64,000 nucleotides of DNA from Pseudonocardia sp. T1-2H (GTDB lineage Bacteria > Actinomycetota > Actinomycetes > Mycobacteriales > Pseudonocardiaceae). The notes below the pieces were generated by a model that made no database searches, was not told the origin of the DNA, and saw only the letters and a list, made by a program, of their open reading frames with translations. Position numbers and translations under genes: made by a program. Each line of letters starts with the position of its first letter. The first letter of the stretch is position 1. Shown here piece by piece: positions 32,386 to 64,000 of the stretch. The stretch lies in NCBI RefSeq assembly GCF_038039215.1, contig NZ_JBBPCL010000001.1:372001-436000 (forward strand), read 5' to 3'.

Positions 32386-33021
32386 CTAGTGCCCCCTCGC
32401 GATCCACTCCTCGAGGTGGGGGGCCTCGACACCGATGGTGGTCGAGTCCCCGTGCCCGGTCCGGACGGTCGTGTCCCCGGGCAGGGTGAGCAGGGTGCTC
32501 CGGATCGAGTCGATGATCGTGTCGAAGCTCGAGTAGGACCGCCCGGTCGCCCCGGGACCCCCGTTGAAGAGGGTGTCGCCGGTGAACACGGTGCCCAGCT
32601 CGGGCGCGTAGAGGCACGTCGAGCCGGGCGAGTGGCCGGGGGTGACCATGGCGCGCAGCTCGATGCCGCCCGCCGTGATCACCTGGCCGTCGGTGAGCTC
32701 CTGGTCCGGCGTGCGGTCCGGGTGGGTCATCTCCCACAGCGGCGCCTCGGCCGGGTTGAGCAGGATCGGCGCGTTGAACATGTCCGCCAGGCGCGGCGCC
32801 TGGTTGACGTGGTCGTCGTGGGCGTGGGTGCACACGACGGCGACGACGCGGCGTCCGCCGATCGCGGCGGCGATCTTCTCCGGGTCGTGCGCGGCGTCGA
32901 TGACGACGACCTCGTTCTCGTCACCGACCACCCAGACGTTGTTGTCGACGTCCCAGGTGCCCCCGTCCAGGGAGAACGTGCCGGAGGTGACGACGTGGTC
33001 GACGGGTCCGGGCGGGGTCAC
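32386..33021 (-). CDS. Metallo-beta-lactamase-fold hydrolase partner of MscR
   Basis: A 211-residue MBL-fold protein from GTG 33021, overlapping the mscR stop (GTGA). The metal-binding motif [11 protein letters not shown] is intact, followed by [15 protein letters not shown] (H) and [16 protein letters not shown] (D), then [10 protein letters not shown] near the end. This gene regularly follows mscR in actinobacteria (as Rv2260 after Rv2259) and probably acts in mycothiol-linked formaldehyde detoxification, for example as an S-formylmycothiol thioesterase, by analogy with glyoxalase II. That activity is inferred. Confidence 0.85.
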
Positions 33022-34104
33022 AGGACCACCACCGAACGCAGCACGTCACCGCGGTGCATCTTCTCGAAGGCGGACTCGATGTCGTCGAGCCCGATCTCCT
33101 CGGAGACGAACTTCTCCAGCGGCAGCCGGCCCTGCAGGTGCAGGTCGACCAGCGCCGGGAAGTCCCGGCTCGGCAGGCAGTCCCCGTACCAGGACGACTT
33201 CAGCGACCCGCCCCGGCCGAAGTACTCGATCAGCGGGATCTCCGGGGCGACCATGTCCGGGGTCGGGACTCCGACCAGGACGACGGTGCCCGCGAGGTCC
33301 CGGGCGAAGAAGGCCTGCTTCCAGGTCTCCGGGCGGCCGACCGCGTCGACGACGACGTCCGCGCCGAACCCGCCGGTGGCCTCCTTGATCGCCTCGACCG
33401 GGTCGGTCTCGGCGGCGTTGACGGTGTGCGTGGCGCCGAAGCCCTTGGCCCACTCCAGCTTCCGCGGGTCCCGGTCCACGGCGATGATCGTGGTCGCACC
33501 GGCGAGCTCGGCGCCGGCGATGGCCGCGTCACCGACCCCGCCGCAGCCGATGACGGCGATCGAGTCCCCGCGGCCCACGCCGCCGGTGTTGATCGCCGCG
33601 CCGATCCCGGCCATCACCCCGCACCCGAGCAGCCCCGCGACCTGCGGCTTCGCAGCCGGGTTCACCTTGGTGCACTGCCCGGCGGCGACGAGGGTCTTCT
33701 CGGCGAACGCGCCGATCCCCAGCGCGGGGGTAGGCCTGGCCCGACTTGAGCGTCATCTTCTGCTTGGCGTTGTGGGTATTGAAGCAGTACCAGGGCTTGC
33801 CCTTGCGGCACGCGCGGCACTGCCCGCAGACGGCGCGCCAGTTCAGGATGACGAAGTCCCCCGGCGCGACCTCGGTGACACCCTCGCCGACGGACTCGAC
33901 GATCCCGGCGGCCTCGTGGCCCAGCAGGAACGGGAACTCGTCGTTGATCCCGCCCTCGCGGTAGTGCAGGTCGGTGTGACAGACGCCGCACGCCTGGATC
34001 TGCACGACGGCCTCGCCCGGCCCCGGATCCGGGATCACGATCGTCTCGACGGAGACCGGCTTGCCCTTGCTGTGCGCGACGACTCCGCGGACCTCTTGTG
34101 CCAT
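33018..34104 (-). CDS. mscR: S-(hydroxymethyl)mycothiol dehydrogenase, one frameshift
   Basis: Zinc-dependent medium-chain alcohol dehydrogenase oxidising the formaldehyde-mycothiol adduct and also acting as S-nitrosomycothiol reductase. From ATG 34104: [46 protein letters not shown] (catalytic zinc) and [15 protein letters not shown] (structural zinc). The frame is lost at 33726-33730; removing one G from the five-G run gives [23 protein letters not shown] and joins the second frame with [35 protein letters not shown] (NAD) and the C-terminus [20 protein letters not shown]. It is the first gene of a two-gene operon and supports a mycothiol-using host. Confidence 0.9.
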
Positions 34105-34120
34105 TACCGTTCCACTCCAG

Positions 34121-34465
34121 TCATCTCGTCGGTGAGTGCCGTGCGCTCGTCCGCACGACAGTCGGGTCGATCCTGCCCTGTCCCCGAGAGCCTTCCATGC
34201 GCGTCCCGCCATGTCGTGCGGCGGACGGGGCGGATCCCTTCGGGCCCGGGGCGGCTCCTCCACCAGCCCCGACGGCGTCCACGGAACGGATCCAGATGCC
34301 GTTGCGGGTACGCCCGAGGTCCAGCGTCATCGGATCGAGGCACTGGTCCCGCCTGCGGTGGGTGTCGAAGAGCGACACGTCGTCGAACACCTGGGAGCAG
34401 CCACCGGTGCGGGCACAGCAATGAGCCCGATCGGCGCCCACCCAGGCGTAACCGCAGCAGGACAT
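34121..34465 (-). CDS. Small Cys/His protein resembling FDXHR-type zinc-binding proteins
   Basis: A 114-residue ORF from ATG 34465 (an in-frame GTG lies five codons upstream). The N-terminal half has [15 protein letters not shown], then [15 protein letters not shown] and GIWIR. This spacing of Cys and His pairs matches the short FDxHR-type zinc-binding proteins common in actinobacteria and their phages. The C-terminal 50 residues are Gly/Arg/Ala-rich without visible features and may be partly out of frame. It ends only 17 bases before mscR starts, on the same strand. No function is known. Confidence 0.55.
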
Positions 34466-51647: not shown

Positions 51648-52172
51648 TCAGACCGGGAGCACGAGATCGGCCTCGGCCGAGGTCAGCAGACCCTGCTCCT
51701 GGGCGGACCAGATCTCCCGGTAGGGGGCGTAGCCGGGCCAGTCCGCGCGGGCGCGCAGCCTGCGGTCCCGTTCGTCCGGCGAGCAGTCCAGCCAGATCGC
51801 CGTCCCGGTGAAAGGCCGAAGGGCCGCCGCGCCCGCCCCGCACCCCTCCAGCACGACGAAGGGTGCCGGAGCCTGCTCGCGCCACGCCTCGGAGCGGACG
51901 TTCCGCAGCCAGTCCCACGGCCGCCACCGGGCCGGCCGCCCGGACGCGAGCGGCGCCGCGATCCACTCGACGGCCAGGGGCACCGCGGCGGTGAGCCCGG
52001 CCCAACCGGGGTAGAGCTCCTCCATCGAGAGCACCGGTGCGTCGAGCGCGGTCCCGAGCTCCGCCGCGAACGACGTCTTGCCCGCCCCCGAGTACCCGTC
52101 GACCGTCACCAGGGGCCCCGGCCGGCCCTTGACGAACCCGACGACGTCCACGCGGCCCGACGCGGGAGCCAT
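51648..52172 (-). CDS. P-loop nucleoside-kinase-like protein
   Basis: A 174-residue P-loop NTPase from ATG 52172, overlapping the iclR stop (ATGA). VTVDGYSGAGKTSFAAEL is Walker A, LSMEELYPGWAGL a D/E-containing substrate loop, FVVLEGCGAGAAALRPF the B strand, and DCSPDERDRRLRARADWPGYAP a lid with arginines. It resembles uridine-kinase-like proteins annotated as (d)NMP kinase or ATP-binding proteins in actinobacteria. Coupling to the aromatic-operon regulator may be only positional. Confidence 0.7.
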   Translation of the reverse strand: MAPASGRVDVVGFVKGRPGPLVTVDGYSGAGKTSFAAELGTALDAPVLSMEELYPGWAGLTAAVPLAVEWIAAPLASGRPARWRPWDWLRNVRSEAWREQAPAPFVVLEGCGAGAAALRPFTGTAIWLDCSPDERDRRLRARADWPGYAPYREIWSAQEQGLLTSAEADLVLPV

Positions 52173-52990
52173 CAGAAGAACCCGTCCCGCGCCACCCGCG
52201 CCGGACGGGGGTCGTAGCCCAGCTCCGCGCTGATCGCGTCCGCGGTCTCCACCAGCATCGGGACGACCTCGGCCGCCAACGTCGCCGGATCCGACCGCCC
52301 CGTCGACGTCGACGACGCGAGCGCCGCCACCACCCGTCCGGACCGGTCCCGGACCGGTGCCGACGCCGAGAGCAGGCCTTCCTCGAGCTCGCCCGCGACG
52401 ATCGACCAGCCCTGCTCCCGCACCTGCGCGAGCGCCAGCCGGAGCTCGGCGGGATCGGTGACGGTCCGGGAGGTCCGGGTGTCCAGCGGGGTCTCGTCGA
52501 GGAACGCGGAGATCCGCTCGGGGCCCGCCCAGGCGAGCAGGACCCGGCCCATCGATGTCGCGTGCGCGGGCACCCGGGTCCCGACGGCCACGTTGATGCT
52601 CATGATCCGGCGCACCGGCACGCGGGCCACGTAGACGACCTCCGTGCCGTCGAGCTCGGCGAGCGACGCGGACTCGCCCGTGTGTTCCGCGAGCCGCAGC
52701 AGATGCGGCTGGGCGAGCTCGATCCGGGCGTTCGACGCCGTGTAGTGCTGCCCGATGGCGAGCACCCGGGGCGTCAGTGACCAGCGCGTTCCCTCGTTCG
52801 CGACATAGCCCAGGCGCTGCAGGGTCAGCAGCAGCCGGCGCACCGCCGGGCGGGAGAGCCCGGTGGCCGCGGCCAGCTCGGCGAGCGTCGGGTTGGTCAG
52901 GTCCTCGTCGAACGCCAGCAACACGGCGAAGCCGCGTTCCAGGCTCTGGACGTAGTCCCGCTCGCTCCCCTCCATGGTCACCCGGCCCAT
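52172..52990 (-). CDS. IclR-family regulator (PcaR/CatR type) of the aromatic operon
   Basis: A 272-residue IclR protein. DYVQSLERGFAVLLAFDEDLTNPTLAELAAATGLSRPAVRRLLLTLQRLGYVAN is the winged helix of the Pca/Cat subfamily, and the effector domain has SLAELDGTEVVYVARVP, INVAVGTRVPAHATSMGRVLLA and VREQGWSIVAGELEEGLLSASAPVRD, typical of aromatic-acid or muconate binding. Start is ATG 52990 or, less likely, ATG 52975. It is divergent from the phenol/catechol operon with two palindromes between; I infer it activates or represses that operon with phenol, catechol or cis,cis-muconate as signal. Confidence 0.88.
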   Translation of the reverse strand: MGRVTMEGSERDYVQSLERGFAVLLAFDEDLTNPTLAELAAATGLSRPAVRRLLLTLQRLGYVANEGTRWSLTPRVLAIGQHYTASNARIELAQPHLLRLAEHTGESASLAELDGTEVVYVARVPVRRIMSINVAVGTRVPAHATSMGRVLLAWAGPERISAFLDETPLDTRTSRTVTDPAELRLALAQVREQGWSIVAGELEEGLLSASAPVRDRSGRVVAALASSTSTGRSDPATLAAEVVPMLVETADAISAELGYDPRPARVARDGFF

Positions 52991-53058
52991 CCTTCCGCAT
53001 GCTTCCCGAAACCGGGTCTTGACCCAGCGTCACCGCCTGAGGCACCCTCTGGCACGGT

Positions 53059-53093
53059 GAACGCATAGCGTTCAATAAGTACGCATAGCGTAC
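53059..53093. promoter_or_regulatory. Tandem 15-bp palindromes, candidate IclR operators
   Basis: GAACGCATAGCGTTC (53059-53073) and GTACGCATAGCGTAC (53079-53093) are each perfect apart from the ATA centre, share ACGCATAGCGT, and have centres 20 bp apart, two helical turns. They sit between iclR and the aromatic operon, ending 20 bases before ATG 53114. Confidence 0.85.
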
Positions 53094-53113
53094 ACCGCAC
53101 GGGGAGGTGCAAG

Positions 53114-53677
53114 ATGACGGTCCAGCCTCGCGAGCTCCGCGACGCGTTCGGCCGGTTCGCGACCGGCGTCACGGTCGTGACGTGCCGCAACGACGAGGGC
53201 ATGCCGCACGGCGCGACCGTCAACGCCTTCACCGCGGTGTCCCTGGAGCCCGCGCTCTGCCAGGTCACGCTGACCCGCCGGTCCAAGGCGTGCGGCTACC
53301 TCGAGGGCACGCCGTTCGCCGTCAACGTCCTGGGCGCCGGCCAGGCCGACACCGCCTGGCACTTCGCCGGCCGCCCGTCGGACCCGGGCCCGGAGTGGGC
53401 GGAGGGCCCCGCCGCACCCGTGCTCGCCGGCTCCGCCGCCGTGTACTCCTGCCGCCCCTGGCGCACCTACGACGGCGGCGACCACCTGATCGTCATCGGC
53501 GAGGTCGAGCACGTCGCCGTCACCGACGACGATCCGCTGCTCTTCTTCGCCGGCGCGTTCCGCGAGCTCGGTGCCCGCGAGACCGGCCAGCACTGGGGCG
53601 GCTCGCTCGACTGCCCCGACGCCGGCTGGTTCGACGCCACGACGACCTTCACACCGCTGCGGCCGCGCGCCGCCTGA
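53114..53677 (+). CDS. pheA2: Flavin reductase component of phenol hydroxylase
   Basis: A 187-residue NADH:flavin oxidoreductase of the HpaC/PheA2 family from ATG 53114 with GGGGAGGTG upstream. [37 protein letters not shown] and [15 protein letters not shown] are family hallmarks (flavin-binding strand and loop), with [12 protein letters not shown] and [12 protein letters not shown] at the end. It supplies reduced FAD to the oxygenase encoded next. It is the first gene of the seven-gene operon. Confidence 0.9.
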
Positions 53678-53729
53678 CCCGACCCCGTCTCCGCCTGACC
53701 CGACTCCACAGAAGCAGAAGGGCCACATC

Positions 53730-56169
<2,440 letters not shown>

Positions 56170-56206
56170 TCCCGTCCCACCCCGCAGACTCATCGAGGAG
56201 CCCGCT

Positions 56207-57430
56207 ATGACCGCTGTGCACGAAACGCCCGCCTGGATCGCCGAGATCACCATGGCCGAGCTCGAGCGCAACCCCTACCCGTTCTACGAGCGCCTGCGGA
56301 AGGAGTGCCCGGTCGCGTTCATCCCCGCACTCGGCTTCCACGTGGCCACGACCAAGGAGGCCTGCCAGGAGGTCGGCGGCAACAGCGACATCTGGGACGG
56401 CCTGATCAGCCCCGCGGGCGGGCGCACGTTCGGCCACCCGAACGTCCTCAATGCCAACGGCCCGGAGCACGATGAGCTGCGCGGCATGGTCGAGCCGTCG
56501 TTGCAGCCCGCCGAGGTGAACCGGTACGTCGAGGACCTGGTCCGCCCGATCGCGCGGCGCTACGTCGAGGCCATCGAGGACGCCGGGCGGGCCGACCTGG
56601 TCGCGCAGTTCTGCGAGCCGGTCAGCGTCCGCTCGCTGGGCGACCTGATGGGCCTGCAGTCGGTGAGCTCGGACAAGCTCCGGGAGTGGTTCCACAAGCT
56701 CAGCGTGTCGTTCACCAACGCCGGGGTCCTGGAGAACGGTGACTGGGCCAACCCCGAGGGCTTCAAGCCCGGCGACGAGGCCCGCGCGGAGATCCGCGCG
56801 GTCCTCGACCCGCTGATCGACAAGTGGATCGTCGAGCCGGACGACAGCGCGCTGTCGCACTGGCTGCACGACGGGATGCCCGAGGGCCAGGTCCGGGACC
56901 GCGAGCAGCTCTACCCCACGGTCTTCGTGTTCCTGCTCGGGGCGATGCAGGAGCCCGGCCACGCCATGGCGTCGACCATCGCGGGGCTCTGGACGAAGCC
57001 CGAGCAGTTCGAGCGCGTCGTCGACGACCCGAAGCTGATCCGGCGGGCGATCACCGAGAGCATGCGCTGGACGTCGCCGATCTGGTCCGCGGTCGCGCGG
57101 ACGAACAAGGTCGACACCACGGTCGCCGGGACGTTCCTGCCGGCCGGCTCGCTCGTGATGCTGTCCTACGGTTCGGCGAACCACGACGAGAACGACTACA
57201 ACGCGCCGTCGGAGTACGACCTCGACCGCGCGCCGGTCCCGCACCTGGCCTTCGGTGCGGGCAAGCACGCGTGCGCGGGGTCCTACTTCGCCAGCGAGGT
57301 CTGCCGGATCGGCCTCGAGGAGCTGTTCGAGGCGATCCCGAACCTCGAGCGCGACGAGGACAAGGAGATCGACTTCTGGGGCTGGGGCTTCCGGGGGCCG
57401 GTCGAGCTGCACGCCCATTGGGAGGTCTGA
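56207..57430 (+). CDS. gcoA: Cytochrome P450, guaiacol O-demethylase GcoA (CYP255A type)
   Basis: A 407-residue P450 from ATG 56207, the same length as Amycolatopsis GcoA. The heme ligand is Cys356 in [13 protein letters not shown]. The three phenylalanines that contact guaiacol in GcoA (F75, F169, F395) all fall at the same residue numbers here: [19 protein letters not shown] and [11 protein letters not shown]. The I helix is [14 protein letters not shown] with the unusual E-P-G-H instead of AGxxT, a GcoA trait. Stretches such as [25 protein letters not shown] and [14 protein letters not shown] agree. It demethylates guaiacol to catechol plus formaldehyde. The reductase gene follows two bases after the stop. 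Confidence 0.93.
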
Positions 57431-57432
57431 GG

Positions 57433-58483
57433 GTGGCCGGTCACTCCGTCCGTCTCAAGACCCTCGGGGCCGAGACGCTCTGCGGCGCCGACCAGCCGGT
57501 CCTCGACGCCTTCCTCCGCGAGAACGTGTGGCTCCCGCACGGCTGCGCCCAGGGCACCTGCGGCAGCTGCAAGCTGCGGGTGATCGAGGGCGAGGTCGAC
57601 CACGGGGCGGCACCCGAGTTCACCCTGACCGCCGACGAGCGTGCGCAGGGGCTGGCGCTCGCGTGCCAGGCCCGGCCGCGCAGCGACCTGCTCGTCGAGC
57701 CGCTGGCGGACATCGCCGACGACGGGGTGGTGCGGCATCCGCTGCGCGACGTCGTCGGCACGGTCGCCGAGCTGACCGACATCGCCCGCGGGACGCGGCG
57801 GCTGGTGATCGACCTCGACGAGCCGATCCCGTTCACGGCGGGGCAGTACGTCGAGCTCACGGTCCCCGGCACCGAGCTCCGCCGGCAGTACTCGATGGCG
57901 AACCCGCCGTCGGAGACCTCGCGCCTGGAGCTGCACGTCCGGCACACCCCGGGCGGCGCCGCGACCGACGGTTGGATCTTCGCCGGGATGACGGTCGGGG
58001 ACAGGGTGGACGTCCGGGGGCCCCTCGGGGTCTTCGGCGTCGGCCGGCCGCAGGACGAACCCGCGATCCTGATCGCCGGTGGGACCGGGCTGGCGCCGAT
58101 GAAGTCGATCGTGCTGGCCGCGCTGGCCGAGGGCCTCGTCCCGGAGATCTGGCTCTACCACGGTGGCCGCACCGAGGCCGACCTCTACGACGGGGACGTC
58201 TTCCGGGAAGCTCGAGGAACGGCACCCGAACTTCCACTACCGGCCGTGCCTGTCGGAGCAGGAGTGGGACGGCGCATCCGGGCTCGTCACCGACGTCGTG
58301 CTCGCGGAGTTCACGAGCTGCAAGGGGATGTCGGCCTACCTGTGCGGGCCGCCCGCGATGGTCGAGGCCGGTGCGAAGGCGTTGAAGCGCCGCCGGATGG
58401 CCCCTCGGCTGATCTTCAAGGAGGAGTTCACCGACACCTCCGACCTGCTGGGTCCGTCGACCGCCGAGGAGGAAGCCCCGTGA
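57433..58483 (+). CDS. gcoB: GcoB reductase (2Fe-2S, FAD, NADH), one frameshift
   Basis: Three-domain reductase of about 349 residues from GTG 57433. The N-terminal ferredoxin has HGCAQGTCGSCKLRV plus LACQARP (four Cys), the FAD domain has RRQYSMANPPSE, and NAD domain LIAGGTGLAPMKSIVL. This ferredoxin-first order is that of GcoB. The frame breaks at 58205-58207; dropping one G from GGG gives DVFRKLEERHPNFHYRPCL, then AYLCGPPAMVEAGAKAL and the C-terminus. The second part would otherwise be lost, so the shift is probably an error. It reduces GcoA in the only known two-protein P450 system of this type. The stop overlaps catB (GTGA). Confidence 0.9.
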
Positions 58484-59601
58484 GCGACCTGCGGATCGAC
58501 CGCGTCGAGACCGTGCTGCTCGACATCCCTCTGCGCCGCCCGCACCGCTTCGCGCGGGTCGGCATGGAGGCCCAGCCGGTGCTCTACGTGTTCGTCCGCA
58601 CCGCGGGTGGCGTCACCGGGGTCGGCGAGGGCGTCGTGCCCGGCGGCCCCTGGTGGGGCGGCGAGTCCGTGGAGACGATGCAGCTGATCGTCGAGCGGTA
58701 CGTCGCGCCGGTGCTCGTGGGGCGCCGGGTGGACGACATCCACGCGCTGCTGCGGGACGTCACGGACGTCGTCGGGGCGAACCTGTTCGCGAAGGCCGCG
58801 GTCGAGGTCGCGCTGCACGACGCCTGGGCCCGCTGCCTCGACGTCCCGGTGCACACGCTGCTCGGCGGGCTCGCCCGGACGTCCATCCCGGTGACCTGGG
58901 CGCTCGGCACCGAGTCCGCGACCGTCGTCATCGAGGAGGCGCTCGGCAAGCTCGACGCCGGGCTGCACCACTCGTTCAAGCTGAAGATGGGGGCGCAGGA
59001 TCCGGCCGCCGACGTCGCCCGGATCTGCGCCGTCGCCGAGAAGCTGAGCGGGGTCGCGGGCGTGCGGGTGGACATCAACGCCCGCTGGGACCGGCTGACC
59101 TCGCTGACGCACCTGCCGACACTGGCCGAGGCCGGCGTCGAGATGATCGAGCAGCCGGTGCCCGGCACGGAGATCGAGACCCTCGCCGAGATCAACGCCG
59201 CACTGCCGATCCCGGTGATGGCGGACGAGACCCTCCGCACGCCGTCGGACGCCCTGCGGGTCGCGCGGCTGCGGGCGGCGGACATCTTCGCCGTCAAGAC
59301 CACCAAGTGCGGAGGCCTGCGGGCGAGCATGGAGATCGCCGCGATCGGGGCTGCGGCGGGGATCCCCACGCACGGCGCGACGTCGATCGAGTCGCCCGTC
59401 GGCACGGCCGCGTCGCTGCACTTCGCCTGCGCCGCGCCGGGGGTGACCTGGGGGAGCGAGCTGTTCGGGCCGTTGCTGATGGCCGAGGAGATGCTCGTCG
59501 AGCCCCTGCACTACGCAGATGGTGAACTGCACCTGCCCGAAGGTCCCGGCCTCGGGATCGAGCTCGACCCGGACAAGATCCGGGCCTTCCGGAGGGACTG
59601 A
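58480..59601 (+). CDS. catB: Muconate cycloisomerase
   Basis: Enolase-superfamily lactonising enzyme of 373 residues from GTG 58480, overlapping gcoB. It turns cis,cis-muconate into (+)-muconolactone. Motifs: ETVLLDIPLRRPHRFA, TDVVGANLFAKAAVEVALHDAWAR, FKLKMGAQDPAADV with the K-x-K base (LKLK position), VRVDINARWDR (metal Asp), EQPVPGTEIETL (metal Glu), MADETLRTPSDAL (metal), VKTTKCGGLRAS (second base Lys) and GATSIESPVGTAASLH. Lys and metal residues are in place. Sugar-acid dehydratases can look alike, but the operon supports CatB. Confidence 0.92.
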   Translation: MSDLRIDRVETVLLDIPLRRPHRFARVGMEAQPVLYVFVRTAGGVTGVGEGVVPGGPWWGGESVETMQLIVERYVAPVLVGRRVDDIHALLRDVTDVVGANLFAKAAVEVALHDAWARCLDVPVHTLLGGLARTSIPVTWALGTESATVVIEEALGKLDAGLHHSFKLKMGAQDPAADVARICAVAEKLSGVAGVRVDINARWDRLTSLTHLPTLAEAGVEMIEQPVPGTEIETLAEINAALPIPVMADETLRTPSDALRVARLRAADIFAVKTTKCGGLRASMEIAAIGAAAGIPTHGATSIESPVGTAASLHFACAAPGVTWGSELFGPLLMAEEMLVEPLHYADGELHLPEGPGLGIELDPDKIRAFRRD

Positions 59602-59604
59602 ACC

Positions 59605-59880
59605 ATGCTCTTCCACGTGAAGATGGACGTCGCGATCCCGCTCGACCTGGACCCGGACGTCCGGGCGGAGACCCTCGCGCGGGAGAAGGCGTACTCCCAG
59701 GACCTGCAGCGACAGGGCAAGTGGGCGCACATCTGGCGGATCGTCGGGCAGTACTCGAACATCAGCGTCTTCGACGTCGAGTCCACCGACGAGCTCCACC
59801 AGCTCCTCTGGAACCTCCCGCTCTTCCCGTACATGACCATCGAGGTCACCCCGCTCTGCCCGCATCCGTCCGCCGTGTGA
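59605..59880 (+). CDS. catC: Muconolactone delta-isomerase
   Basis: A 91-residue small isomerase from ATG 59605, only three bases after catB. MLFHVKMDVAIPLDLDPDVRAETLAREK and YSQDLQRQGKWAHIWRIVGQYSNISVFDVESTDELHQLLWNLPLFPYMTIEVTPL are typical, with the conserved LP-x-x-P-Y/F-M motif. It isomerises muconolactone to 3-oxoadipate enol-lactone. It is the last gene of the operon; no pcaD, pcaI or pcaF is in the window, so the pathway continues elsewhere. Confidence 0.95.
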   Translation: MLFHVKMDVAIPLDLDPDVRAETLAREKAYSQDLQRQGKWAHIWRIVGQYSNISVFDVESTDELHQLLWNLPLFPYMTIEVTPLCPHPSAV

Positions 59881-60118
59881 GCGGCCCGTGACCACCACGG
59901 GGCGGACGCAGTGCTCGTCCACCCGGGTCCGCACGCTCCTGGCTGCCGGGGACGTCGCGGGCGCCGCGCGCGTCCTGGGCCGTTTCCACAGGTCGACCGG
60001 GGTTGTGCGCGGGAAACCTCGTTCTAGCGAGGTTTCCCGCGCACAGGGGCCGCCGGGCGGCTGTTCGTGGAACCTGGGCGAGCGTCCGGACCGTCACCGT
60101 CGATTACCTGGAGCGCCT
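59881..60118. other. Intergenic region with the palindrome copy B
   Basis: 237 bases between catC and the SnoaL gene. The palindrome at 60004-60045 is the only clear feature and may end the aromatic operon. A short in-frame open stretch from 59888 is not convincing as coding. Confidence 0.5.
60004..60045. repeat. Perfect 18-bp palindrome, dispersed element copy B
   Basis: TGTGCGCGGGAAACCTCG (60004-60021) and CGAGGTTTCCCGCGCACA (60028-60045) pair perfectly around TTCTAG. Read on the minus strand, its core AACCTCGCTAGAACGAGGTT equals copy A (8995-9034), while arm bases differ pairwise. Confidence 0.85.
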
Positions 60119-60571
60119 GTGAACACACTGGAAGATCGTCTGCGCCGGCTCGAGGACCTGGAGGCCATCCGTGCCCTCGACGCCCGCTACACCCGGGTCC
60201 TGGACGCGAACGACTGGGACGGCCTGATGGACTGTTTCACCCCGGACGGCGAGTTCCACGGCCTGGACCACGCCAAGGGCCACGACGAGCTGCGGCCCTT
60301 CTTCGCGGGGCTCGCCGCGGGCGGCCTCACCGAGTTCTGGCACCACGTCTCGAACCTGGAGATCGACCTCGACGGGGACACCGCGCGGCTGCGCTCGCTG
60401 CTGTGGCAGCCGTGTGTGCAGAACGGCGAACCGTACGTCGCGGCAGGCCGGTACACGGACGTGGTGGTCCGGGACGGCGGGCAGTGGCGCTACCGCTCCC
60501 GCACGATCGACTTCTCCTACTTCGTCCCGCTCGCCCAGGGCTGGAAGCCCGGGGCGGCGACCCGTCCGTAG
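60119..60571 (+). CDS. SnoaL/NTF2-like protein
   Basis: A 150-residue NTF2-fold protein from GTG 60119. MNTLEDRLRRLEDLEAIRALDARYTRVLDANDWDGLMDCFTPDGEF is the usual SnoaL_4 start (helix, then D/W/F motif), with WHHVSNLEIDLDGDTARLRSLLWQ and GRYTDVVVRDGGQWRYRSRTIDF at the end. Such proteins are ring hydrolases, isomerases or dehydratases, or only bind. It may belong to aromatic metabolism by position, but a palindrome separates it from catC. Confidence 0.82.
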   Translation: MNTLEDRLRRLEDLEAIRALDARYTRVLDANDWDGLMDCFTPDGEFHGLDHAKGHDELRPFFAGLAAGGLTEFWHHVSNLEIDLDGDTARLRSLLWQPCVQNGEPYVAAGRYTDVVVRDGGQWRYRSRTIDFSYFVPLAQGWKPGAATRP

Positions 60572-60614
60572 GCGCCCGGCCGGACCTCGTCCCGCAGCCG
60601 CGAGGCATTTCCCG

Positions 60615-61769
60615 TCAGGGATCGACGCAGACGAGACCCCACGGCACGTCGTCGACCCGGGTCATGACGAGCGTCGCGCGCCGCGAGCCGGACAGCTTCA
60701 GCTTGCGGTGCACCGCGTCCACGTCTCCGGCGAGGCCCCGGCGCCGGATGTCGACGGAGCCGACGTCCAGGTCCCGCAACAGCGCCGGCAGCCTCTTCTG
60801 GTTCCACGGGCGCGTGTCGATCACCCGCAGCGTCCGGGCGAAGGGCGTCTCGACGAGCCGGTCCGTGCTCAGGAACGCGATCCGGTCGTCGATCTTCCAG
60901 GCGCCGATCCGGCGGGCGAGCTCCTCCACCGCACCCGCCCGGGTGACTGCGGGGGAGGGGTCGAGCAGGTACTCGCCCGGTTCCCGCACGTCGACGGCCT
61001 CCCCCTCGAGCGCGACGAGGGTGTGCCCGCCGGGCAGCAGCGTGGCTCGCGCCCCGGCCGTCGCCAGGGCGGGGGACCAGGCCACCGCCTCCTTCAGGTC
61101 ACGGTCGACGGCCACGAACTCAAGCTCCCAACCCGCCGGCACCGCGTCGTGGGGCAGGCCCGGGGCGGCCTTGATCCCCATGCGCTCGACGGGCAACGCC
61201 GTGCACCAGTCGAGCGGCGGCTCGCTCTCCCCGGTCCGGAGCCGGCCGCGTCCGGTGCGCCGGGCCGGGTCCACGAAGACCGCGTCGGCGGCGGAGAGGG
61301 GGGCCTCCCGGACGTCGGACAGCAGCGTCGTCACGTTCGCGCCGACGCCGTAGACCTCCGCGTTCCGCCGGGCCATCCACAGGTGCACGGGATCGAGGTC
61401 CACGGCCAGGACGTGCCGGTCCGCGGCGAGGGCGACGAGGTCCCCGCCGATCCCGCAGCACAGCTCCACCAGGTTCGAGGTCCCGGCGAAGCGCGGGGCC
61501 CGATGCCGGGCGACGACCTCCGCGGACGCCTGCTCCCAGCCCGCGCGGGTGAGGAACATGTCCGCGGCCCGGTCGAACTTCGCGGCGGCCCGGTACCGGA
61601 GCGCCTGCTGCCCCAGCGCGTCGACGACCAGCTGCGCGGGGTACCGCGTGCGGAGCTCGGTCCCGAGGCGCAGGGCCTCGGCCCCGGAGACGTCCCGCCC
61701 GCGCAGCTCGCGCAGGAGCGCCTGCCCCTCGGGGGTGAGCAACGCGTCGTAGCGGTCGAGCTCGGTCAT
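60615..61769 (-). CDS. Class I SAM-dependent methyltransferase with THUMP-like C-terminal domain
   Basis: A 384-residue protein from ATG 61769. RAGWEQASAEVVARHRAPRFAGTSNLVELCCGIGGDLVALA is the SAM-binding motif, and HVLAVDLDPVHLWMARRNAEVYG, DAVFVDPARRTGRGRL (DPAR/DPPR catalytic-type motif) and PGLPHDAVPAGWELEFV follow. The C-terminal 130 residues carry the THUMP-like fold with GVDVGSVDIRRRG-like motif (VGSVDIRRRGLAGDVDAVHRKL). It probably methylates RNA. The start overlaps the stop of the lysozyme-like gene upstream (ATGA). Confidence 0.85.
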   Translation of the reverse strand: MTELDRYDALLTPEGQALLRELRGRDVSGAEALRLGTELRTRYPAQLVVDALGQQALRYRAAAKFDRAADMFLTRAGWEQASAEVVARHRAPRFAGTSNLVELCCGIGGDLVALAADRHVLAVDLDPVHLWMARRNAEVYGVGANVTTLLSDVREAPLSAADAVFVDPARRTGRGRLRTGESEPPLDWCTALPVERMGIKAAPGLPHDAVPAGWELEFVAVDRDLKEAVAWSPALATAGARATLLPGGHTLVALEGEAVDVREPGEYLLDPSPAVTRAGAVEELARRIGAWKIDDRIAFLSTDRLVETPFARTLRVIDTRPWNQKRLPALLRDLDVGSVDIRRRGLAGDVDAVHRKLKLSGSRRATLVMTRVDDVPWGLVCVDP

Positions 61770-62674: not shown

Positions 62675-63060
62675 TCAGCGGGGCAGGTACTCGCTGAGCT
62701 CGACCAGGTTCCGGTCCGGGTCCCGGACGTAGACGCTGCGGATCGGGCCGGTCGCGCCCGTCCGCTCGATCGGGCCCTCCTCGACCGGGACGCCGGCGGC
62801 GATGAGGTCCGCCACGACGTCGTCGAGCGGGCCTTCGACGATCAGGCACAGGTCGGCCGAGCCGGGCAGGGGCGCCGCCGCGTGGGGGCGGGGCGACCGG
62901 CCGAGTCGTGCAGGTTGATCTTGCTGGTCCCGAAGCGGAGAGCTCGCCGTCCGTCGCCGAACGTCTGCGCCTCCATACCGAGGACGTCCCGGTAGAACGC
63001 GATGGTCGCGTCGAGATCCGCGACGGTGAGGACGAGGTGGTCGAGCCGGTCGATCCGCAT
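62675..63060 (-). CDS. VOC (glyoxalase-like) protein, one frameshift
   Basis: About 128 residues from ATG 63060: MRIDRLDHLVLTVADLDATIAFYRDVLGMEAQTFGDGRRALRFGTSKINLHDSAG is a VOC start with the metal His (DHLVL). The frame is lost in the G-rich run 62884-62893; one more base gives RPHAAAPLPGSADLCLIVEGPLDDVVADLIAAGVPVEEGP and IRSVYVRDPDRNLVELSEY, with the metal Glu in NLVELSEY. Close to the virulence-factor or fosfomycin-thiol-transferase-like VOC group; function unknown. Confidence 0.82.
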
Positions 63061-63238
63061 GCCGTGAGTCTCCCAGGCGCCGCCACCCTTGCTCATATCG
63101 TGAGCCTCTGCCCATAATGTGAGCCGCGGGGCCGCTCGCGTGAGGGCACCGGGGCCTGAAGGGGCAGACCATCCGTGGCACCGTGAAGACCGCGATCCTG
63201 CCGCTCTCGCTGGTCGCCTGATGCACGAAGGAGACTTC
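63061..63238. other. Intergenic region before the CoA-transferase gene
   Basis: About 180 bases of divergent promoter space between the VOC gene and the CoA transferase. It contains CATATCGTGAGCCTCTGCCC and CATAATGTGAGCCGCGGGGC, two loosely similar stretches sharing CATA-TGTGAGCC about 23 bases apart, which may be operator half-sites. I see nothing else. Confidence 0.35.
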
Positions 63239-64000
63239 ATGGCCACCGACCTCCCGCTGGACGGGGTGCGCGTCCTCGAGCTCGGGAACTACATCGCCGC
63301 ACCGACGGCCGGCCGGCTCCTTGCGGACTTCGGCGCCGAGGTGATCAAGATCGAGCGGCCGCGCACCGGGGACGAGCTGCGGAACTGGCGCCTCTACGTC
63401 GGGGACACGTCGATGCTCTACCGGACGATCAACCGGAACAAGAAGTCCGTCGTGCTGGACATGCGCACGCCCGAGGGACGCGACGCCGTGCTGGCCCTGG
63501 TGGCGCGCTCCGACGTCGTCCTGGAGAACTTCCGGCCCGGCACGCTCGAGAAGTGGGGCCTCGGCCCCGAGGAGATGAACGCCGCCAACCCCGACCTGGT
63601 CCTCACCCGGATCTCGGCGTTCGGGCAGACCGGCCCGTTGTCCGAGCGGCCCGGGTTCGCCGCGGTCGCCGAGGCGATGGGCGGTCTCCGTGAGCTGGTC
63701 GGCGAGCCGGACCGGCAGCCCGTCCGGGTCGGCGTCTCGATCGGGGACTCGATCGCCGGGCTCTACGCGGCGTTCGGCGCGATGATGGCGCTGTTCCGCC
63801 GGGAGTCCCGGCGGGGCGAGCCGCGGCCGCCGCTCGCCTCGCGCACGATCGACGTCGCGCTCAACGAGGCGGTGCTGTCCATGATGGAGTCCCTCGTCCC
63901 GGACCATCTCGCCTACGGGGTCAACCGGCAGCGGGTCGGCGGGCGGATGGAGGGCATCGCGCCCTCGAACGCCTACCCGTGCGGGGACGGCAGCAGCGTC
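63239..64000 (+). CDS. CaiB/BaiF family type III CoA transferase, truncated at the window end
   Basis: Formyl-CoA transferase-like enzyme from ATG 63239 with GAAGGAGAC upstream; 254 codons are open to the window edge. LPLDGVRVLELGNYIAAPTAGRLLADFGAEVIKIERPRTGDELRNW is the conserved start, with NRNKKSVVLDMRTPEGRDAVLALVARSDVVLENFRPGTLEKWGLGPEEM and ISAFGQTGPLSERPGFAAVAEAMGG after it. The catalytic Asp near residue 170 should be in GVSIGDSIAGLYAAFGAMMAL (ID-containing turn). It moves CoA between carboxylic acids; substrate is unknown. Confidence 0.9.
   Translation, partial: MATDLPLDGVRVLELGNYIAAPTAGRLLADFGAEVIKIERPRTGDELRNWRLYVGDTSMLYRTINRNKKSVVLDMRTPEGRDAVLALVARSDVVLENFRPGTLEKWGLGPEEMNAANPDLVLTRISAFGQTGPLSERPGFAAVAEAMGGLRELVGEPDRQPVRVGVSIGDSIAGLYAAFGAMMALFRRESRRGEPRPPLASRTIDVALNEAVLSMMESLVPDHLAYGVNRQRVGGRMEGIAPSNAYPCGDGSSV

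Follow-up and report, generated by a model that had tools for sequence, protein, structure and literature searches.

gcoAB between catA and catB: a putative catechol ortho-cleavage operon with entry enzymes for phenol and guaiacol in Pseudonocardia sp. T1-2H

The 64,000-nucleotide stretch of DNA analysed here (the window; C1:372001-436000 of the 7.0 Mb, 3-contig genome of Pseudonocardia sp. T1-2H) carries on its forward strand a row of genes for the catabolism of aromatic compounds, pheA2, pheA1, catA, gcoA, gcoB, catB and catC, preceded by a divergent iclR gene and followed by a gene for a SnoaL-like protein (Table 1). A preliminary description of the locus had proposed this gene order, and it is borne out by the coordinates and by family or structure-sequence matches for each gene. 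The several overlaps it had also described come down to a single one, of 4 nt between gcoB and catB; taken in order, the intergenic gaps are 52, 28, 37, 2, -4 and 3 nt.

Table 1. Features of the locus, with positions in the window and the basis of each assignment
Feature	Position	Strand	Basis and remarks
IclR-family regulator, candidate CatR-type	52172..52990	-	TIGR02431 297.8 bits, cut-off 284.75
Palindrome GAACGCATAGCGTTC, candidate operator	53059..53073	.	perfect 6-3-6 inverted repeat; one spacer change in L063
Palindrome GTACGCATAGCGTAC, candidate operator	53079..53093	.	perfect 6-3-6; centre 20 bp from GAACGCATAGCGTTC centre
pheA2, flavin reductase	53114..53677	+	PF01613, 118.6 bits
pheA1, flavin adenine dinucleotide (FAD)-dependent phenol hydroxylase (HpaB type)	53730..55289	+	PF11794 (HpaB_N), PF03241 (HpaB)
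catA, catechol 1,2-dioxygenase	55318..56169	+	TIGR02438 418.9 bits, cut-off 404.4
gcoA, cytochrome P450 aromatic O-demethylase, L81/N82/V296 type	56207..57430	+	646.6 bits to 5ncb (solved Amycolatopsis GcoA), residues 7-407; residue survey
gcoB, three-domain P450 reductase, one frame change near 58.2 kb	57433..58483	+	Fer2, FAD_binding_6, NAD_binding_1
catB, muconate cycloisomerase	58480..59601	+	TIGR02534 504.3 bits, cut-off 334.95
catC, muconolactone isomerase	59605..59880	+	TIGR03221 146.7 bits, cut-off 130.6
SnoaL-like gene	60119..60571	+	PF13577 90 bits; start assigned by us, in-frame GTG upstream at 59888
mscR, mycothiol-dependent formaldehyde dehydrogenase	33018..34263	-	TIGR03451, two pieces spanning 33021-34095
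metallo-hydrolase	32386..33021		by eye from translation

CatA, CatB and CatC all exceed the cut-offs of their curated models, and CatC carries the route one step past muconolactone, which had been proposed as its end. The operon goes no further than the CatC product, since a pcaD match above cut-off lies outside it (C1:6412003); likewise, a second catA above cut-off elsewhere in the genome (C1:4378846-4379682) means that the operon catA is not the sole catechol dioxygenase. On the phenol side, PheA1 and PheA2 are an HpaB-type oxygenase and its flavin reductase, closely related to a proven member of that type: PheA1 shares 77.0% identity with R1CP_RS38215 (WP_032492681), encoded on plasmid pR1CP1 of Rhodococcus opacus 1CP, and does not reach the cut-off of HpaB-2, the model for 4-hydroxyphenylacetate. 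R1CP_RS38215 is listed as PheA1 of a (chloro)phenol hydroxylase in a paper on strain 1CP, in which a triple pheA1 knock-out is reported not to grow on phenol (PMC13101518).

The residues of GcoA require a more cautious treatment. The heme Cys356 and F75, F169 and F395 do stand at the numbers known from Amycolatopsis GcoA, as the preliminary description had it and as the alignment confirms, but they are not diagnostic of guaiacol activity: none of the four ever varies where covered among 111 matched rows (60% identity or more, with duplicates and own copies kept in). V241 and G245 of the guaiacol site are kept in the window GcoA and are invariant where covered in the same rows. Four other positions vary among them, namely 81 (I in 62, L in 46), 82 (G in 62, N in 27, D in 18 and S in 1), 83, and 296 (T in 69, V in 31, A in 9). 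Thr296 of GcoA is reported to hydrogen-bond to a heme propionate when guaiacol is bound and to the substrate when vanillin is bound (PMC6021390), and position 296 is described as one of the more variable in the active site (PMC6628648). The Amycolatopsis residues at 81-83 and 296 are not known to be a requirement for guaiacol activity. Because the cited residues are not diagnostic, the substrate must be judged mostly from the neighbouring genes, which point to guaiacol as the likely one.

In a tree of 79 GcoA rows, from which five partial rows had been removed beforehand, a branch with support of 100/99 groups the window with its nearest relative, the Pseudonocardia metagenome-assembled genome (MAG) RYN_114 (L063; GcoA identity 98%), with Actinomycetospora soli (L016), genome G323 (L136), three Geodermatophilaceae, three Roseobacteraceae and a distant outgroup (L012). 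The other 68 rows, including every T296 copy in the tree, lie on the opposite side of this branch.

The full gene order, SnoaL-like gene included, recurs in Geodermatophilus ruber (L013), Blastococcus TBT05-19 (L014) and Geodermatophilus DSM 45219 (L015), and parts of it are found in Modestobacter MAG pieces (L019, L061 and L070). Because the row recurs in the Geodermatophilaceae, a chance arrangement of these genes can be ruled out. Among 112 genomes of the family to which the Blastococcus genome belongs, GcoA at E <= 1e-150 is present in 11; three of these hold full operons, two hold fragments that end at contig ends, and the six others have a GuaR-like gene instead. The same threshold in the window's own family gives 57 places in 55 of 390 genomes. 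Other Pseudonocardiaceae had been named as the place to look for the same order, but among the 41 places whose flanks were surveyed (some flanks being only 1.5 kb or ending at contig ends) gcoA follows directly on catA in just two genomes, T1-2H itself and G335, whose locus has the same matches and the same spacing as L063, and the better support comes from the Geodermatophilaceae. Related genes are also found in other arrangements: G323 has the order guaR, gcoA, gcoB, catA, and Actinomycetospora soli has iclR, pheA2, pheA1, catA and catB, with gcoAB and guaR 3.6 kb further. The gene that follows catB in the latter locus is an FAD synthetase by Pfam. A GcoA search of plasmids returned three records at 60-80% identity; in the one that was checked, the neighbours form a different, meta-type gene set.

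These arrangements can be set beside several known systems. The guaR-gcoAB genes of Amycolatopsis, guaR-cyp255 of R. opacus PD630 and guaRAB of Gordonia alkanivorans also encode a two-component P450 O-demethylase with homologous GcoA and GcoB, but they are described as having a divergent AraC-type activator, GuaR, and cat genes in a separate operon (PMC9582017, PMC12488008); in G. alkanivorans, guaR is reported to be divergent and beside guaAB (PMC12488008). The window, unlike these systems, has no GuaR and places gcoAB between catA and catB. The catRABC genes of Rhodococcus share the IclR gene divergent to catA, catB and catC (the genes are 54-59% identical at loci L045, L047 and L064, catC 73-79%), but neither pheA2A1 nor gcoAB lies within their row. 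A module on plasmid pLS1-1 of Pseudonocardia HH130629-09 (L164) has a divergent IclR gene, a flavin reductase, an HpaB-type hydroxylase (75.1%) and a dioxygenase in the same order; it differs in lacking gcoAB, in continuing with an adenylyltransferase-family gene and an alpha/beta hydrolase, and in being flanked by transposase genes. The Geodermatophilaceae operons, which are unstudied, share the whole order and differ by an EthD gene (PF07110) between gcoB and catB that the window does not have. Among the papers listed in literature searches, none mentions gcoAB between catA and catB in its title or in the opening of its abstract. We regard the locus as a variant of the known catechol funnel.

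The R. opacus PD630 system also bears on how the operon may be controlled. Its AraC-type GuaR is reported to activate the P450 promoter with guaiacol and to be required for growth on guaiacol, and the IclR-type CatR to repress PcatA, with cis,cis-muconate as its probable effector (PMC9582017). The window IclR, divergent to the operon and above the cut-off of TIGR02431, the PcaR/PcaU/PobR model, is 59% identical to the IclR encoded beside catABC in the three Rhodococcus loci. Two palindromes lie between its gene and pheA2. The window contains 54 perfect 6-3-6 palindromes, among which three pairs stand within 40 bp, and only the iclR-pheA2 pair has a common core; this core, ACGCAYAGCGT, has six occurrences in 7 Mb, including the two in the iclR-pheA2 region, and a reversed control has two. 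Both palindromes are kept in the nearest relative, a similar pair is present in the Modestobacter piece L070, and GTACGCTGTGCGTAC sits between catA and the IclR gene in the three Rhodococcus loci. A wider palindrome regulon is not favoured, as the neighbours of the four further core sites, judged by eye from translations with no family search, are not aromatic-looking; one of these four sites, however, a single copy of the core (C1:6408374-6408384), lies 3.6 kb from the pcaD match.

GuaR, by contrast with the known guaiacol systems, is missing. We surveyed 83 distinct GcoA loci (L014 and L015, which have an identical GcoA sequence, were counted once), 77 of them with at least 1.3 kb of upstream sequence, and found a divergent GuaR-like gene within 1.5 kb of gcoA in 56 of the 77. 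The remaining 21 comprise all four loci of the present operon type whose upstream sequence was long enough, three Roseobacteraceae, 13 loci that form another branch, and L058, in which the GuaR-like match is placed at a partial match to gcoA. In the window, no GuaR-like gene lies within 7 kb of gcoA, and the best match elsewhere in the T1-2H genome is only a 39% identical AraC regulator (C1:4729376-4731567) beside a different P450 gene. With GuaR absent, gcoAB seems to be under the control of the CatR-type IclR regulator instead of a guaiacol sensor.

One gene in the row does not read through as deposited. The N-terminal part of gcoB is in the frame of 57433 and the last 91 residues are in the frame of 58208, and third-position GC switches frame near 58.2 kb. 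The Fer2, FAD and NAD domains are nonetheless all present, with NAD_binding_1 divided between the two frames, and the N-terminal part scores 284.2 bits to 5ogx, an entry listed as cytochrome P450 reductase, which we take to be GcoB. Read literally, the first frame continues into catB as a 925-residue open reading frame (56824-59601). A real GcoB-CatB fusion or programmed frameshifting is not favoured, given that both gcoB parts share a frame in 87 of the 88 loci where both can be placed, the window being the sole exception, and given a genome-wide excess of frame breaks. The nearest relative has an intact gcoB. Our own coding-score scan counted eight frame breaks in the 64 kb window, and 200 kb sampled elsewhere in the genome (stretches L071-L080) held 17; by comparison, 195 kb of G014, a genome from the same genus, had three, and 1106 kb of control loci (L013-L069, some of them near copies, as L014/L015) had 27. 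The pooled figures, 25 in 264 kb versus 30 in 1301 kb, amount to a 4.1-fold excess (p = 7e-7); the 17 breaks in 200 kb outside the window give p = 7e-5, and comparison with G014 alone gives p = 0.0015. The mscR gene is likewise split over two frames, its TIGR03451 parts scoring 427.1 and 232.9 bits with neither above the cut-off of 512.9, and the scan missed this break, so that its numbers are an undercount. Because the assembly has about four times the frame breaks of the controls and mscR is split in the same manner, a sequencing error in the assembly is the most likely origin of the gcoB break, and we infer that gcoB is intact in the living cell. Given the excess, gene calls from this T1-2H assembly need care. 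A VOC-type gene in the window (62675-63246, minus strand) also changes frame, near 62.9 kb.

Overall, we believe that the locus is an operon for ortho cleavage of catechol that is fed by two entry enzymes, one for phenol and one for guaiacol, read as one transcript under a CatR-type switch, and that the gcoB break is an assembly error; we place the probability of this reading at roughly 0.6. PheA2 and PheA1 would hydroxylate phenol to catechol, and GcoA and GcoB would O-demethylate guaiacol, or a close ortho-alkoxyphenol, to catechol and formaldehyde. CatA, CatB and CatC would then convert catechol to the beta-ketoadipate enol-lactone, with later steps coded elsewhere in the genome. The row is probably transcribed as a single unit starting between iclR and pheA2, where the CatR-type IclR protein, by analogy with CatR of PD630, would repress at the paired palindromes until an intermediate of ring cleavage, for instance cis,cis-muconate, releases it. 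Without their usual activator, gcoAB would depend on this product-driven switch. The funnel of phenol and guaiacol into the catechol ortho pathway, already put forward in the preliminary description, thus remains the best reading, and recurrence of the row in a second family supports its action as a single functional unit, and the short gaps between the genes speak for the proposal too; its guaiacol branch owes most to the company that gcoAB keeps.

Several observations weigh against this proposal. The window GcoA has L81, N82, A83 and V296 where Amycolatopsis GcoA has I, G, V and T. The operon type requires two changes on the GcoA tree, as the GuaR-keeping Actinomycetospora soli and G323 loci group with the window; the operon therefore had more than one origin or loss, or it moved. 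Nor is this operon alone in having lost GuaR. In the nearest relative, pheA2 and pheA1 are truncated (L063 8360-9080), by a real deletion or an assembly collapse, and the palindromes are imperfect in the three Geodermatophilaceae operons. A consensus scan of 52900-60700 found no promoter-like or terminator-like sites, which says little in a GC-rich actinobacterium.

The first of these points lends itself to a different account of the P450 pair, in which it acts mainly on some other ortho-substituted phenol and has joined a catechol operon for that reason. The four exchanged residues are consistent with this, as is the position of the protein in a branch of the GcoA tree for which we know of no characterised member; position 296, moreover, is reported to contact vanillin in GcoA (PMC6021390). 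Such a change of substrate is nevertheless unlikely in our view, as the aromatic triad, V241 and G245 are all kept, and the adjoining CatA, CatB and CatC act on unsubstituted catechol, which is the product expected from guaiacol. If instead the gcoB break were real in this strain, the guaiacol branch would be decaying and the operon would now serve phenol and other catechol sources. The break is, after all, present in the sequence as given, and the nearest relative has suffered losses in its operon too, there in pheA2 and pheA1. We find this improbable when frame breaks are some four times commoner in this genome than in the controls, with mscR split likewise, and when gcoA and the codon pattern on either side of the gcoB break appear well preserved.

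It might also be argued that gcoAB is a mere neighbour, with its own promoter or simply caught inside a mobile aromatic cluster, and that it is not co-regulated with the cat genes. A module without gcoAB does exist between transposase genes on pLS1-1, and Actinomycetospora soli and G323 have similar genes nearby in other orders and with GuaR kept. Yet the insertion point is the same in two families, and the gap between catA and gcoA, about 125 nt in L013 and L014, is 37 nt in the window, so that we give this account the poorest odds of those considered here. Co-regulation of gcoAB with the cat genes in a two-entry operon remains the reading that we prefer.

A further, more tentative step, one that we think could well be wrong, is that control of the O-demethylase has switched from sensing the substrate to sensing the product: GuaR would be gone, gcoAB would be induced through the CatR-type repressor by a ring-cleavage intermediate, and at least two actinobacterial families would share this arrangement. 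For example, consider a cell that meets guaiacol. If gcoAB are indeed wired in this way, formaldehyde-releasing demethylation would proceed only while catechol cleavage is already running, and any catechol source would prime the use of guaiacol. The locus allows a test of whether product feedback can drive an aromatic demethylase that has no substrate sensor, and it draws attention to a GcoA branch that we believe to be uncharacterised. Lignin breakdown commonly yields guaiacol and phenol, and lignin engineering seeks to connect the routes from both with catechol cleavage; a natural row that has both entry enzymes together with the cleavage genes would be a ready-made part.

The formaldehyde released by GcoA would need a general system for its disposal. 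The preliminary description pointed to mscR and its hydrolase 20 kb upstream; both are present, about 19-21 kb upstream, and are candidates for this role, but no tie to the operon was found.

The cluster also highlights a conserved companion gene. The SnoaL-like gene travels with it in several genera, being present in L063, L013-L016, L019, L061 and L136, occurs as two pieces in L164 and is weakly matched (25%) in L144; if gcoAB have been rewired as proposed, its product would be an unrecognised helper of the route. Of the EthD genes that lie between gcoB and catB in the Geodermatophilaceae operons, that of Geodermatophilus ruber is shorter. An EthD gene also follows gcoB in the three Roseobacteraceae (L017, L018 and L020), which belong to another phylum and whose GcoA is 81% identical to that of the window, and the two features together suggest transfer between phyla.

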